Under the pieces are notes generated by a model, which saw only the letters and a list, made by a program, of their open reading frames with translations, did not search any database and had not been told where the DNA came from. Below, in pieces: positions 8,566 through 20,065 of a stretch of 33,574 bases of DNA (positions are counted from its first letter, which is position 1; each line of letters starts with the position of its first letter). This stretch comes from Candidatus Zhuqueibacterota bacterium (GTDB taxonomy: Bacteria; Zhuqueibacterota; Zhuqueibacteria; Residuimicrobiales; Residuimicrobiaceae): positions 1-33,574 of the forward strand of contig CAUJEL010000196.1 of the NCBI GenBank assembly GCA_963169875.1, written 5' to 3'. The position numbers and the translations under genes were made by a program.

Positions 8566-10629
8566 TCAGGGGCCGGGGATTAAAACCGGTAGCGTCGCCG
8601 CCGCCGCCTTGAAGGCGTTTGTCAGCCACAAATCATAATCCACCGTGTTGATCACACCATCCAGATTCAGGTCCGCGCCATCGTACGCCGTGCCGCCGTT
8701 AAACGATGCATTGTACCACATCACGTAATCCTGTGTGGTCACCTGACCATCCTGATTGGCGTCGCCGCTGCAGACGCCCCATACATTGGCGTCGATTTCG
8801 CAACAGCCGCCTCCTCCATATACTTTGGCGCTGCCCGTGCTAAAATCGTATGGGATGGCGGATGCAGCTTGCAAGGTAATGGCAGTGCTCGACATGATGG
8901 AGAGATGGTTGCGATGGCTAATCACCACATAATAATCACCGGCTGGGACATCAAGCGCCACTCCTTCTGATCCGCCGTCTCCCGTGAGCACGCCATCCTG
9001 GCGTAACAAAACGCTTTTTGAGAGGACTGCCGCGCCATCCGCGGTGCTGCGCAGCTGCACCAGCACCCAGTCGATGGTGCCCGGAGGCAGGCCGGAGAGC
9101 GTTCTTGCGTCTTCGGGATAGGGCGACGTCAGGGGGACGGTGTGTTGCGCGTTCATCTGACCCCTGCCCACGTCATAGGCGCCCTGCAAAAATAACTTCC
9201 CTTTCAACAGCACACTGGATTGCGGTTCTGACACCAATCCCTTGATGCAAAAATTGGCCGTGGCATTATCATCATGCAAATCAAGCCAGGCGACGTTTTT
9301 CCAATAGTAACTCTGTCCCGGCAGGGAGGCGGAGACCACAACGGTGCCCAGTTGCGGGGCAGCCGACTTGTAAAATTGCGGCGGCAATCCGTGGCTGCTG
9401 CTTACAAAATATTTATCATCCCTTTCGGCGTAGAGCAGGACCGGAATTTCTGAGGTGCGGTCATAGGCGTGTCCACCCGCTGAAAGCGTCAGCACTATGT
9501 AGAAGGGTTGGCCTCCGTGCAAATATACTGGATGGTCCAGATCAACGGAGTGAAATCCTCTGTGACCGGCGCTGCCGGATTGAATGGCCAGCCGGTATTT
9601 GAGCTGCTGCTCTGTAAAGGTGTCGAATACTTCGATTTGATAATTCACAGCGTCGGTTGCGGTATAAAAACTGACTGCGGCGAGCCATTCGTCTGCAACC
9701 GCTTGAAAAGCATTGAATGCCTTGGCAACCTCCGCGCGCGTGTCGCGCCAGCCGTGATAATCGTGATAATAGATACGGGCGAAGGACAAGGGCTCTACGT
9801 TTTGAAAGGAGACGGCGCCCATTTCAGGGTGTTTGCCGCAATGTTTATCATAATAAGAAATCCAAAAATAGCCAGTACCATTCCAGGAACTGCCCCAGCT
9901 GTTCTTGCACAGCCAGGCGCCAACCTGAGGCGCCTGGGTTACTTTGTTATCATCCCAGCCGACGATGGCGATGGCGTGATTGGGATCATTGGCATCGCCG
10001 GGCGGCTGATAGTGGGTACCGCCGGAATAAAAACCGCCACCGTAATACATGCTGGTGCCCATGACGCCGTAGGTCATTATTTTTTGCTTGATGAGCGCGA
10101 TGTTGCTGAGATCCGCTGCCAGGGTGTACCATTCAATGTTGCGCGGGTAATAATAATGAAAAGTGGGGCTGGAGCGTAAAGGCGGTGTGGAATAGGATTG
10201 CCCATCCACATCGCGCACCGCGCCTTCACCGCGCGAGAGGTAGGCGGCTGTCACCAGATAATCACCCCCCATATGAACTTCCAACCCACCGCCGCTGGGT
10301 GGATCGGCATCGTCATTGTTGTGCTGGTTAAAGCCATTCCACCAGTCGAGATGGTATTCGGCGAGGTTGGGTTCGCCGCTTTCGCCGGCTGCGGACCAGG
10401 CGCCGGTCATGAGCAGATTGCCTTCGATGGCTGCCATGGCGCCGTGGGTCCAGCACGTGCCGCCGGATTGTGATTTGACAGAGGTGACAAAGTTGATACC
10501 GCCAACGTTGCGAAGATCGTACACGGCGGGCGGTGTTTGCGCCGGCGCTACCCGTGGCAAGCTGAGTAAACAAGGAATGAGCAGCGGGATGAACGCTGCT
10601 GAATGACATAAAAATACACGCAGTCTCAT
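8566..10629 (-). CDS. Secreted papain-family (C1) cysteine protease with C-terminal dockerin domain
   Basis: 687 residues. A signal peptide ([13 protein letters not shown], ending near APAQ) leads straight into the protease, with little room for an inhibitory propeptide. Catalytic residues are visible: oxyanion Gln54 and Cys59 in [11 protein letters not shown], His218 in [11 protein letters not shown] and Asn243 in [10 protein letters not shown] lectin-like beta domain (about 280-460) and further beta sandwiches follow. The tail carries two EF-hand-like dockerin repeats, [17 protein letters not shown] and [17 protein letters not shown], each with the D-x-N-x-D-G-x-V/I-x-x-x-D calcium loop. 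There is no T9SS motif, unlike the hydrolase just before. The start has AGGTGA close upstream. Extracellular protein breakdown is the likely role; no cohesin partner is seen in this window. Confidence 0.88.
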
Positions 10630-14329: not shown

Positions 14330-17300
14330 TCAAAGCGACGGATTGAGTTCATGGTACCCTCTGTCGACGATTTGATCATCCCGGAACAACGCCCATTGCG
14401 GGAATCGCGGCAGCGCCTTGGCCATCTGGTGGAGCTGCAGGGCGCTGTTGGCCGCAATGATGGTGACCATTCTTTCAGGATTTTGCGGATTCGGAACCAC
14501 GATCATCAATCCCTCATTGGCCGCAGCATACGTCTTGCCCTGCCATTGGAACAAACCGTTGCCGAATTCTGCGCCGCTCCCCGCCGCCGCAGCTGTTACC
14601 CAGTGATTATCTCCCGCCAGGCTCAACAGGATGACGTCGTGCGACTGAATGTCGGCCTGATCGAATTCACAATCTTTTCGCAGCGGAAGAATCGTCTCAG
14701 TGAAGCGGTCTGCCGCGGCGCGGGCAAAACGCTGCGCCAGCGTATGATTGGCTTCGATTTGCCGGGCTGTTCCGTACACGATCATGGTATGATTGAAATC
14801 ATCGTAAAAATTGGTAAAGGTATAATAGCGCCCGTTTTCAACGGGGTAATCATTGCCCGCATTCAGCGTAACCTGCAGCGGCTCCTGCGCAAGATCCCAC
14901 GTCCATTCCTGCGTTGGCTGCGTGATCTCGATTTTTTTCCAGATCATCTTTGCAGTGGTTTTGATGCGTACCGAGGTCATCAACGGGTACGGCTGGCCAA
15001 TTTGCTGGACTGAAAACTTCAAGCGGTAGAGACTGTCGCCTGGTTCAATTTTATACGCTGCCTTTATATTTGGCAAGTCACTGCGATTGATCCAGGCATC
15101 GATCATCTCTTTCAATTTGCAGCCTGTAGAGGATTCCGCGAGTTGGATAAATTGCGCTGTGGTGATATTCTTTTGCTTATATTGGTCATGCACCTGGTTC
15201 ATCATTCGCGCAAAACGCTCATTTCCCAGCTTGAGGCGAAGTTGATGCAGCAGGTAGATGCCGCGAATTCTCGGGATATAGTAGTGTTTGGCCTGATGAT
15301 AGTTGGTCTGCGCTTGTGACGGCACCAGGGTGCCTTCAATGGCCTGGGTATAAAGCAGACGGCAGTTGAGTTCCGCCAGGTCGTTGGCCAGAAAGGTCCG
15401 GGCTTTGCCTGCCTCTTTGGGCAGATTATGCAGGGTCTGCCAGTAACCAGCTGTGGCGCTGATGAGCCAGTTCTCGCCGTTGGAGGCGGGGTACACGGTA
15501 TTGCTCCACAGATCCTCAGCCGCGAAGAGATAGATGGAATCGATGGCCGCCTCCGATTCCGTTTTAAGAAGCGGTGCTTTTTCTGTTTCTGCTCTTGGCA
15601 GCTTTCGTATCAATTCCGCCAGTGATAAGGGGCTGAAGGTGGTGTATCCCAGACTCAACCGCGGGATGGCCAGCGGCAGATCCGGAATGCGGCCGTTTTC
15701 GTTGACAAACATTTCTCGATAGGTCACCTTGCCGTAATGGGCGTGAAACATCATTTTTTCCGCCATGGCTGAGGTGGTGATTTTGCCATCGCAGGCATGG
15801 GGCCGATTTATGGGGGAGGAGCCCACCAGCTTCATGCCTCGCTCGGCGTTGATCTGCCCGCGGTTTTGTTCGTAAAAATTCCAGAAGGCGATGTCGCGGT
15901 CCCAGGGTCTGAACGAAAGGTCAAAAGGTGCATTTTCAGCGTTGCTGATGTATTCTTTGCGGATGTCGAGCGATTTGGGATTGTTATTGCTCCAGTACCA
16001 ATCCACCTGGCCGTCGTAGAAATCGCGTTGTGAACTGCGCCATAATTTGGCCGCGTTCGTGCCAAGACAATAGATGGCGATCTCGTCGGTTTTGCAATCT
16101 CCGATGAGCCAGTCGTTGGTGTAGAGTCCATTGTTGTTGGTGGAGAGGTATTTGACCACCTCATCGATGGAACCGGCATATTGCGCCGCCAGACGGATGC
16201 GGTTGGACTGCGGGGTGCCATCGGAATTAAAGGGGGTTTGATTGACCGTGGTTTCACCGATCATGATGCCGGCCGCGTTGATGTAAAAATCCGCGCCCGA
16301 ATGAATGCCTCCGGCAAAAGTCTCGTAAACCAGGCGATGACCTTTTTCCGGCACCACATCGACGAATACATCCCAGTTGGGCCCGGCATAGCCGTTCCAC
16401 ATGAACAGCTGGCCAAAGACGATGCGCTGATCGCTTGTGGCCGATTTATTGGCCAGAAATGAAGAACACTTGTGCAGCCGTTCCGGCATGTCCATTTCAT
16501 CTTCCGGCGTCTGGAATCGCTGTCCACTCAGCGCGTGCGGGGTTTTGGTGATGCCATCTGCTGCGTACGAAAGATCGACATAAGAATTGATTGTGACGAT
16601 ATCGAGCAGGTCGATGGCGCGATCGTAGATTTGCAGACCGGTCTTTTTGGCGCCATCCGCGATACCCTGCATCTCTTGCAGAAATTCTTTTTCATACTTG
16701 CGCAGAAAGAGCATGTCACTCTGAGAACGCAAATCCCGCCAGGCGGCGGCTGGATTTTCTTTGTTGCGGTTGATGGCCAGTTTGCTGATGTAATTTTTGA
16801 TCTCTGGCGCCGTCAGATAGCCATATTGAAATCCGCGGGTATGGGGCTGGCCTTCGATGTGGACATAAATCCAGCCCTGCTCCTCGAACCGGAAGGCGGG
16901 GCCGTACCACTTGACGCGTTCTGCAGGGAGGTACCTGGTGATCTCGTCTACCGGCTGGAGTTCGATATTATCAAACCAGGCCTGCCCAACAGCGTCGCCG
17001 CGATAACCGAGATGGAGACACACGCGATCTTGCGCCTGGCTGGCGAAAAAGAGCACGCGGATGTGACGCCAGTCCTGGTTGCCGCCAACTGCTGCGGAAT
17101 GCGCCGTGATGGGCATGGATTCCATGCGCAGGCACGCCGGAACGGGGGTGGGGTACTGCTGGCTGGAGTCGGTGCGCGCATCAGCTGTTTTGATCCAACC
17201 GGAGAGCTGATACAATTTGCCGATTTCGAGGGCAATTGGCTCAGAATAGACGCGCGTCTGTTGCGGCTTTGCATGATCAATATGAAGGCTGTACGCCCCT

Positions 17301-17524
17301 TTTTGACGTACGACCAGGTCGGGGGAAATCAATTTATTACCAGTGTCATCGCTTTGCCAATTGGCAACGGTGCCATTGTGGATGGTCTCAAAATCCGAAT
17401 TGATAATGAGGATTGATGGGCTGGATTCTGCGCATATCAGGTTCTGGTTTCCAAAGGGGTTACCCAAAAGAAAAACAATCATGAAATAAGACAGACGCAG
17501 CTGCACATTCTGAAAAGCGGTCAT
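14330..17524 (-). CDS. Exported three-part hydrolase: CBM-like, phospholipase B-like/C45 Ntn-hydrolase and degenerate M1-like domains
   Basis: 1064 residues with GGAGG 4 bases before the ATG and a signal peptide (to about residue 33). Residues 37-190 resemble a CBM4/9-type jelly roll (INSDFETIHNGTVANWQ, YQLSGWIKTADA, AWFDNIELQPV). Residues 215-570 look like a phospholipase B-like/acyl-transferase Ntn-hydrolase: GQPHTRGFQYGYL, EMQGIADGA, and HKCSSFLANK with Cys353 as the likely self-cleaving nucleophile, then GIMIGETTVNQTPF. Residues about 640-830 resemble the helical part of M1 aminopeptidases (ENWLISATAGYW; RGIYLLHQLRLKLGNERF; LKEMIDAWINRSDLPNI), yet no HExxH zinc motif exists anywhere. The substrate is unknown: amide or acyl-ester cleavage is expected of the Ntn fold. 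The gene is monocistronic and divergent from the M28 gene. Confidence 0.75.
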   Translation of the reverse strand: MTAFQNVQLRLSYFMIVFLLGNPFGNQNLICAESSPSILIINSDFETIHNGTVANWQSDDTGNKLISPDLVVRQKGAYSLHIDHAKPQQTRVYSEPIALEIGKLYQLSGWIKTADARTDSSQQYPTPVPACLRMESMPITAHSAAVGGNQDWRHIRVLFFASQAQDRVCLHLGYRGDAVGQAWFDNIELQPVDEITRYLPAERVKWYGPAFRFEEQGWIYVHIEGQPHTRGFQYGYLTAPEIKNYISKLAINRNKENPAAAWRDLRSQSDMLFLRKYEKEFLQEMQGIADGAKKTGLQIYDRAIDLLDIVTINSYVDLSYAADGITKTPHALSGQRFQTPEDEMDMPERLHKCSSFLANKSATSDQRIVFGQLFMWNGYAGPNWDVFVDVVPEKGHRLVYETFAGGIHSGADFYINAAGIMIGETTVNQTPFNSDGTPQSNRIRLAAQYAGSIDEVVKYLSTNNNGLYTNDWLIGDCKTDEIAIYCLGTNAAKLWRSSQRDFYDGQVDWYWSNNNPKSLDIRKEYISNAENAPFDLSFRPWDRDIAFWNFYEQNRGQINAERGMKLVGSSPINRPHACDGKITTSAMAEKMMFHAHYGKVTYREMFVNENGRIPDLPLAIPRLSLGYTTFSPLSLAELIRKLPRAETEKAPLLKTESEAAIDSIYLFAAEDLWSNTVYPASNGENWLISATAGYWQTLHNLPKEAGKARTFLANDLAELNCRLLYTQAIEGTLVPSQAQTNYHQAKHYYIPRIRGIYLLHQLRLKLGNERFARMMNQVHDQYKQKNITTAQFIQLAESSTGCKLKEMIDAWINRSDLPNIKAAYKIEPGDSLYRLKFSVQQIGQPYPLMTSVRIKTTAKMIWKKIEITQPTQEWTWDLAQEPLQVTLNAGNDYPVENGRYYTFTNFYDDFNHTMIVYGTARQIEANHTLAQRFARAAADRFTETILPLRKDCEFDQADIQSHDVILLSLAGDNHWVTAAAAGSGAEFGNGLFQWQGKTYAAANEGLMIVVPNPQNPERMVTIIAANSALQLHQMAKALPRFPQWALFRDDQIVDRGYHELNPSL

Positions 17525-17758: not shown

Positions 17759-20065
17759 ATGAAAAAAAATCTGTATATTTTCAGTCTTATACTCTCCATC
17801 CTTGTGGCTGATAGGCCGCTTGTACAAGCTCAAGAACGGTTTTCAGCTTCCAGGGCATTTTCCTATATCGAGTCGTTATGCCGGCCTGAATTCGCCGGCC
17901 GCATGACCGGTCAACCCGGTGGACGCAAAGCCGCCGAGTGGATCGCCGCGCAGTTTTCCGCCTGGGGTCTGCAACCCGCCGGGGACGATGAATCCTTTCT
18001 CCAGCTTTTCCCGATGCTGGCTTCTTCACAAACCAGACGCGCAACAATGACCCTGAAAAATGGCGCCTTTGGAACGGTGGCGTATCAGGAGGGTAACGAT
18101 TTCACCGTCTACATCAATTCAGGTTCTGCAAAGGTTGCGGCTGAAGTTGTCTTTGCCGGATATGGCATCTGTGAGCCGGACAAGGGCTGGGATGATTTTG
18201 CCGGGATCGATGTGCGCGGCAAGATCATGCTCATCTATCGCGGTTTGCCATCGGGCAAATCCGATTGGGAGTTCGCCAATGAACGGGACTACAAGATGCG
18301 CATGGCGGCGGGCAAAGGTGCCGCAGCCCTTCTCATGCTGGAGCGGGGGGAGTGGCCCATTCGCGGCGGCACCATTCATGAGGCCGGCTACCAACCGCAA
18401 ATTGCGGCTGTGAATGTTTCCAGAAAGATGGTGCGGGATCTGTTTGCGGGAACCGCTAAAGATATGGATATCGTCCTGCGCGAACAGGCGAAGAAGCCAC
18501 AATCCATGCCATTGGCCAAGTGGATGCAGATCAACGTGTCCGTGGAGCGCCTTAAAACGGGTGTGGGAGAGAATGTCCTCGGCGTGCTGCAGGGCTCGGA
18601 TCCACAATTGAAGCGCGAGTATCTCGTCATTGGCGGGCATATGGATCATACCGGCCTCGGTCAGGACGGCAAGCTCTACGCCGGCGCCAATGATAATGCT
18701 TCCGGCACGGCGGTGGTCATGGAACTGGCGCGCATCTTCGCCGCTGCGCCGCAACGGCCCAAACGCTCTCTGATCTTTGCTGCTTTCGGTGGAGAGGAGC
18801 AAGGTCTGTATGGATCAAAATATTTCGCCTACCATCCCACCGTTCCTGTGGAGAATATAGTTGCCATGTTGAACTTCGACATGCAGGGCCATGGCGACGG
18901 CGGCGCCCGATTCGGCGGCCGGAATTATCTGCCCGAGATCATCGAACCCTGGGTGTCAAGTTTCTCCGACTCGGTTCGCGCCAGGACGCGCAGCGGCAGG
19001 GGGTGGGGCATGGGCGGTTCGGACCACGCTCATTTTGTCGAACAAGGCATTCCCGCTTTCGGCTTCGGTTCCAGCGGCGATCACTTGTTTTACCACAGAT
19101 TCGAAGACCTGCCTGCCAATATTAATACGGCTTCGCTGCAGGCGGTCGGCGATCGCGCGACGGAGATGGTAACGCACATCGCCCATCATCCGGAACCGCT
19201 GGATTGTCCACCCGGACTTTTCTTCCTGCGACACGGGGATCAGATCGCCTTCAATCCGGCAATGGATATCGTCGCAACGCAGGATTTGCAGCGAAAGCAA
19301 CTCATCTTGCAATTGCAAAAAAATGGTGTGCGCATGCTCGCCCTGCCTGTGCCTGGTACCGCCTCTTCAACCGTGCCATTATACGCGCGCCTGGACAGCA
19401 TCGGACAATTCATCAAGACCTCGAGTGCTACCTTTTTGCGTTATGAGAATGCCGGCTCCCTGGACCGGGCCGCTGCGGATGGCAAAATCGCTCTGGCCAC
19501 CATGCTGAAAGGCACGGCCGCTGTGCGGGAAACGCCGTTTCAGCTGCGCCAGCTCGTCCAGCTGGGCCTCAATTACATCGAGATCGATGCAACCGATCCC
19601 ATTTTCCAGGATGCTGCGATCAGCGCCCAGGGAATGACGCTGCTGCACTCTATCAAAGATGCGCCGGTGGTTCTTATGGTTTCCCGGGTTGATTCGCAGC
19701 AGATTTCAGCCCTGCGGCAAAATTTCACGGGACGCATTCTATGGTCATTGGACCTGCCCGCCGTGATCGCACAACAGGCAGCCGTCAAGAGGGCGCTTCA
19801 GGCTGATAAAACCTTGCTCAGCCTGCAAGTGACAGCCCAGGATGATCCTGATCAGCTTTCTGAGCTGGTTGATGCCCTGCCGCGGCAGCGGGTTCACCTC
19901 GACGTTCATGCGGATGTGGATTTTTCCGATGCAGCGCTGGAAAAGAAGGTAGAAATGTTGCAGGCATTTTATTTGTTGCGCTGTCATGTCAGCTCCGTTG
20001 AAATGACCTATAAGGAAATGGAGGGCTGGTGCGGCAGAAATTTGAAAGCCTTGCTGGCGCCGTAA
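17759..20065 (+). CDS. Exported M28 metallopeptidase with PA domain and a C-terminal degenerate M19-like domain
   Basis: 768 residues with a signal peptide (MKKNLYIFSLILSILVADRP, ending near LVQAQ). The protease core has the M28 zinc ligands: His294 in IGGHMDH, Asp312 in GANDNASG, Glu346/Glu347 in GGEEQG, Asp374 in LNFDMQG and His446 in LFYHRFED. A PA-type insert lies at about residues 125-250 (VVFAGYGICEP, DVRGKIMLIYRG). From about residue 482 the protein continues for 285 residues beyond a normal M28. There, RHGDQIAF, GSLDRAAADGKIALATMLKG and LRQLVQLGLNYIEI recall M19 renal dipeptidase strands, but the metal-binding Glu of the 'EG' motif is Lys583, so this part is probably inactive. Aminopeptidase action on peptides is the likely role. 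The ribosome binding site is weak. Confidence 0.82.
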   Translation: MKKNLYIFSLILSILVADRPLVQAQERFSASRAFSYIESLCRPEFAGRMTGQPGGRKAAEWIAAQFSAWGLQPAGDDESFLQLFPMLASSQTRRATMTLKNGAFGTVAYQEGNDFTVYINSGSAKVAAEVVFAGYGICEPDKGWDDFAGIDVRGKIMLIYRGLPSGKSDWEFANERDYKMRMAAGKGAAALLMLERGEWPIRGGTIHEAGYQPQIAAVNVSRKMVRDLFAGTAKDMDIVLREQAKKPQSMPLAKWMQINVSVERLKTGVGENVLGVLQGSDPQLKREYLVIGGHMDHTGLGQDGKLYAGANDNASGTAVVMELARIFAAAPQRPKRSLIFAAFGGEEQGLYGSKYFAYHPTVPVENIVAMLNFDMQGHGDGGARFGGRNYLPEIIEPWVSSFSDSVRARTRSGRGWGMGGSDHAHFVEQGIPAFGFGSSGDHLFYHRFEDLPANINTASLQAVGDRATEMVTHIAHHPEPLDCPPGLFFLRHGDQIAFNPAMDIVATQDLQRKQLILQLQKNGVRMLALPVPGTASSTVPLYARLDSIGQFIKTSSATFLRYENAGSLDRAAADGKIALATMLKGTAAVRETPFQLRQLVQLGLNYIEIDATDPIFQDAAISAQGMTLLHSIKDAPVVLMVSRVDSQQISALRQNFTGRILWSLDLPAVIAQQAAVKRALQADKTLLSLQVTAQDDPDQLSELVDALPRQRVHLDVHADVDFSDAALEKKVEMLQAFYLLRCHVSSVEMTYKEMEGWCGRNLKALLAP

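Follow-up and report, generated by a model that had tools for sequence, protein, structure and literature searches.

An exported bacterial protein joining a CBM-like domain, a C45/phospholipase-B-like Ntn-hydrolase and a zinc-less half of an M1 aminopeptidase

Why would an exported bacterial Ntn-hydrolase keep half of an M1 aminopeptidase whose zinc site is gone? The question is posed by a gene at 14330-17524 in a 33,574-nucleotide stretch of Candidatus Zhuqueibacterota DNA (the window), and we approach it through the relatives of the protein, the state of its two enzyme-derived parts and the division of labor that these suggest.

One exported chain and its relatives

The minus strand of 14330-17524, on which all parts of the gene discussed below lie, is a single uninterrupted frame of 1064 codons; a plus-strand ORF overlapping it (16472-17416) is taken as spurious because the minus strand is the one conserved as protein. 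The product opens with a hydrophobic stretch, also present in most relatives, that we read as a signal peptide (residues 1-33, the end being approximate; 17426-17524), and a search of the 1064-aa chain found no internal TM-like stretch beyond this signal. Behind it follow a CBM_4_9-like jelly roll (residues ~36-195), a C45/phospholipase-B-like (PLB-like) Ntn-hydrolase domain (~205-645), an M1 half (~660-895) and an α/β domain (~896-1064). The sequence-only reading had proposed one exported chain with just such CBM-like, PLB-like and M1-like parts; sequence matches bear out this build and 13 full-length members conserve it, which excludes a chance frame or an assembly-made fusion. A full-length AlphaFold model from a three-sequence alignment (pLDDT 33) was left unused, and no domain arrangement was read from it. 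The CBM-like domain (residues 36-195; 16940-17419) matches PF02018 weakly at 39-116, with 23.8 bits against a cutoff of 25.9 (E 6e-5), and the family passes its cutoff in the relatives L074 (27.6 bits) and L069 (28.1 bits). Its mean pairwise identity among proteins of this build, hereafter the long forms, is 44%.

The long forms comprise 13 full-length proteins (1003-1181 aa) and two cut by contig ends, and they occur in the phylum of the window and in the class that holds a MAG named 'Ignavibacteria', hence in at least two bacterial groups. The close relatives are L003 from a different genus within the family (genome G002; 66% identity), L027 from the same genus (G001; 78%, cut by a contig end) and L028 from the MAG Ignavibacteria bacterium MH_R2_21 (52%). 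Searching 82 genomes of the phylum with A3, a profile built on the Ntn part, gave the long form in five (two of them contig-cut) and short forms in two. From the 294 genomes of the class to which the genome of L028 belongs, the profile retrieved 10 long forms at E < 1e-197 and nearly 50 short-form places at E 1e-44 to 1e-67, mostly in frames of 463-550 aa, with only two fragment hits scoring in between. A second profile, A4, covering residues 653-1064, is matched nearly end to end by all 13 full-length long forms (L077 in two pieces, L081 end-cut) and by none of 12 short PLB-like proteins examined. Residues 640-1064 thus do not belong to the usual make-up of PLB-like proteins, and homologs with the full build exist, two of the points on which the initial reading had asked to be checked. 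One of them, L074, carries PF02018, PF04916 (48.0 bits) and PF01433 (33.1 bits, cutoff 27.7) above their cutoffs in a single chain. In a tree of the Ntn part, a branch supported at 100/100 separates the long forms from the short ones; together with the shared build, this makes the fusion look like one old event, retained ever since. A literature search for a CBM + Ntn + M1-half build returned nothing, and no relative of the long form was found in a viral collection.

The viral sequences did hold a short counterpart: a 462-aa PLB-like Ntn protein with the motifs HCSAF and AHNSF is encoded in L093 (2983-4371, plus strand), and also in L094 and L095, IMG/VR contigs of 372, 497 and 87 kb. Its neighbors, named by eye, resemble RecA/UvsX, SbcC/gp46, Mre11/gp47 and a Cas4-like nuclease, and the surroundings read like a jumbo-phage replication cluster.

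In the window, the gene is flanked by a pectate-lyase-like β-helix protein with a T9SS-type tail and by a divergent gene (17759-20065, plus strand) for an M28 peptidase with a PA-like domain followed by a weak M19 match. Further away, one chain combines a papain-type C1 peptidase with a Lectin_like domain and closes with a weakly dockerin-like stretch (8566-10629, minus strand). Across the 13 long-form loci no common neighbor gene was found, so the protein seems to act alone; the gene groups, compared by eye, are linked only through T9SS-type tails or widespread sensor domains, with ordinary synteny in two pairs.

An Ntn-hydrolase core with an altered active site

The core (residues 205-645; 15590-16912) reaches curated cutoffs for two families, C45_proenzyme NF040521 at 224-485 (85.0 bits, cutoff 85; E 6e-24) and Phospholip_B PF04916 at 273-478 (36.1 bits, cutoff 27; E 4e-9); relatives score 89.8-100.3 bits with NF040521, and profile A3 matches PLBD2/PLBD1 chains at E 4e-7 to 1.5e-5. 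By homology, an αββα Ntn fold is predicted, in line with the initial reading. The predicted nucleophile, which would also begin the β-chain after a putative self-cleavage, is Cys353 (16466-16468) in the motif HKCSSF, as initially suggested. The Cys is present in all 14 members that cover the site, as is the Ser that follows it; HKCS is kept in every full-length long form, and in short PLB-like proteins the residue aligned with Cys353 is the Cys of GCSAF. A nucleophile Cys/Ser dipeptide has been described for PLB-like proteins (PMC8053727). The 148 residues from Cys353 onward are the most conserved part of the long forms (73% mean pairwise identity, compared with 36-58% elsewhere), the pattern that a functional active site would show.

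In a model of a snake-venom PLB, the Cys is assisted by His242, Lys490, Asp285, Asp488 and Arg253 (PMC7419708), and the counterparts of these residues, mapped by alignment with short bacterial forms and not by structure, are kept only in part. The active-site His of the classic PLB branch is absent: its position holds Gln372 (16409-16411) in 15/15 long forms, where the aligned short forms read AHNSW, a point that goes beyond the earlier note and places the protein in the wider C45/PLB-like family, outside the classic PLB branch. The alignment with short bacterial forms shows no kept counterpart of the supporting Arg in the long forms. Asp412 (16289-16291), D in 15/15 long forms, is the likely counterpart of Asp285, and D579-G580-K581 (15782-15790), invariant in the long forms with the Lys aligned in the short ones, that of Asp488-x-Lys490. 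Directly before the latter lies N573-R-P-H-A-C578, invariant and confined to the long forms.

With the His replaced by Gln and the supporting Arg not kept, the chemistry may differ from that of PLB or be gone. Taken to its end, this would make the whole chain a catalytically dead binding protein, its Ntn domain as inactive as its M1 half; we consider that improbable, since Cys353 and the region behind it form the most conserved part of the protein and Asp412 and the D-x-K pair are kept. Moreover, to our knowledge a His at this position is not a requirement across the C45 family as a whole. If the domain is active, amidase or acylase chemistry appears likelier than lipolysis: PLB-like enzymes have been doubted as lipases, the majority of Ntn enzymes are amidases, and whether the true substrates of the PLB-like family are esters or amides is disputed (PMC8053727).

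A zinc-less M1 half and the domain behind it

The M1 resemblance of the C-terminal region, previously noted by eye, holds up in profile searches and structure comparison alike. Residues 660-895 (14840-15547) correspond to the helical part and β-sandwich that make up the latter half of an M1 aminopeptidase. The Peptidase_M1 match in the window protein itself, at 753-811, lies below cutoff (E 3e-4); profile A4 retrieves genuine M1 proteins across the phylum, best among them the zinc-bearing L043 (E 1.5e-23 over 371 residues, profile positions 19-393), and it touches Taf2 (6hqa) at E 0.17. An AlphaFold model of residues 655-900 (pLDDT 58.7, better after residue 755) matched 23 PDB chains by Foldseek at E <= 1e-3, all 23 of them M1 aminopeptidases (with an E of 4.7e-5 among them). 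Its helical part superposes on IRAP at 1.7 A over 71 residues (Z 7.3, middling alone) and its sandwich on malarial M1 at 2.2 A over 73 residues; the relative orientation of the two does not match M1 (joint alignments exceed 12 A rmsd), and we therefore claim no domain arrangement. Matches to β-mannosidase (GH2) fell mostly on the β-sandwich and were set aside as reflecting a common sandwich.

The alignment of L043 to A4 begins immediately after its HEICH zinc motif, and every genuine M1 protein matched by A4 has an HExxH upstream at the corresponding place. None of the 15 long-form members has this motif, in agreement with the first reading. Their aligned position, F667-A-A-E-D671 in the window protein (15512-15526), shows F/Y/V for the first His and D/A/P/N for the Glu, and the second His is missing; the third zinc ligand, Glu, is replaced by Ile688 (15461-15463; V/I/N in all members) and the catalytic Tyr by Arg752 (15269-15271; R/K in all members). 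By alignment, then, all zinc-binding and catalytic residues of M1 (ligands, base Glu and Tyr) are lost in every member. Also absent are the N-terminal saddle domain and the GxMEN motif: the residues before 650 belong to the Ntn domain, which in the long forms occupies the place of the missing N-terminal M1 parts. Invariant in the M1 half are W673, P679, N685, W686, R752, H760, Q761, R763, G767 and N768. Four of these, R752, H760, Q761 and R763, lie at and after the position of the catalytic Tyr and could in principle mark a metal-independent enzyme whose site arose anew in the former M1 cleft; we give this reading almost no credence, as the half that anchors the substrate through GxMEN is gone and we know of no M1 relative that functions without zinc.

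The remainder of the chain, residues 896-1064 (14333-14839), matches no Pfam family and forms an α/β domain with 49% mean pairwise identity among the long forms. A domain of this type also follows the sandwich in the zinc-bearing M1 proteins L043, L006, L009, L016 and L008, and we therefore treat residues 660-1064 as one block, probably acquired as such from an M1 protein of this kind. The earlier M1-like assignment is thereby refined: homology supports a C-terminal half made of an M1 half and an α/β domain known from real M1 proteins in this phylum. The α/β domain is, by its distribution, an unnamed module of the phylum; it appears near the N-terminus of L007 (a protein free of any Pfam match), L011 and L018, all of which lack the M1 zinc motif. 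The protein of L009 (496-3957, plus strand; genome G054) is itself an unusual assembly, a 1154-aa chain of a zinc-bearing M1, the same α/β domain, M28 and PDZ.

Proposed working and known relatives

Since the same three-part build has been retained by relatives belonging to at least two bacterial groups, the dead M1 half probably has a job in binding or scaffolding. The reading that we favor, with somewhat better than even confidence, is an exported, self-cleaving C45/PLB-like Ntn-hydrolase in which the CBM and the dead M1 half bind or present the substrate. After export, the chain would most likely cut itself before Cys353, yielding an α-chain (~34-352) with the CBM and a β-chain (353-1064) that would remain together; the freed Cys353 would then hydrolyze an amide (or acyl) bond, while the CBM-like domain and the M1 half, themselves non-cleaving, would bind, position or admit a substrate, probably peptide-like or an acylated amine, at the Ntn site. 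A more specific proposal, which we advance tentatively, is that the Ntn site has been rebuilt around Gln372 and a new His576/Cys578 beside the Asp-x-Lys pair, both residues being invariant in the long forms; with the half-M1 as the substrate-presenting part, the protein would be a peptide or acyl-peptide amidase of novel specificity.

The M1 half and the α/β domain might instead serve folding and stability, a scaffold holding the two chains together with no influence on substrate choice. Ntn precursors must fold correctly before self-cleavage, and the M1 half is less conserved (mean pairwise identity 47% in the helical part and 36% in the sandwich) than the Ntn core; its invariant residues, some near the old zinc cleft, nevertheless suggest a kept surface, and we regard a purely structural role as rather unlikely. 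What a dead peptidase fold does is thus a question amenable to experiment within a single soluble protein, through deletion or mutation of one half.

Each part of the protein has known relatives from which the long forms depart. With the C45 (NF040521) and PLB-like (PF04916) proteins, among them PLBD2 (3fgr) and PLBD1 (4bwc), they share the Ntn core, the Cys-Ser at the chain junction and, likely, the supporting Asp and the Asp-x-Lys; they differ in the Gln that replaces the active-site His, in the extra CBM and in ~420 additional C-terminal residues. Short bacterial PLB-like forms, with frames of ~460-550 aa, have neither the CBM nor the C-terminal addition. The M1 aminopeptidases (PF01433), such as PepN, the Legionella enzyme (5zi5) and the two-domain Deinococcus enzyme (6a8z), share the helical part, starting at the zinc helix, and the β-sandwich, whereas the long forms have shed the N-terminal domain and first catalytic half along with HExxH, the third-ligand Glu and the Tyr. 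Use of an M1 homolog for binding instead of cleavage has precedents, and the M1 pseudopeptidases known to us are all eukaryotic and intracellular; TAF2 is one such protein. Tma108 is another, also binding where its relatives cleave (PMC11266112). Unlike the long forms, neither is fused to an Ntn-hydrolase. The present family is bacterial and secreted, and across distant lineages it has kept a dead half-M1 on a live-looking Ntn-hydrolase, adding a branch beside the PLB-like family, whose substrates remain disputed (PMC8053727). The long forms are a new architecture made of known parts, an Ntn-hydrolase of the C45/PLB-like kind and half of an M1 pseudopeptidase.
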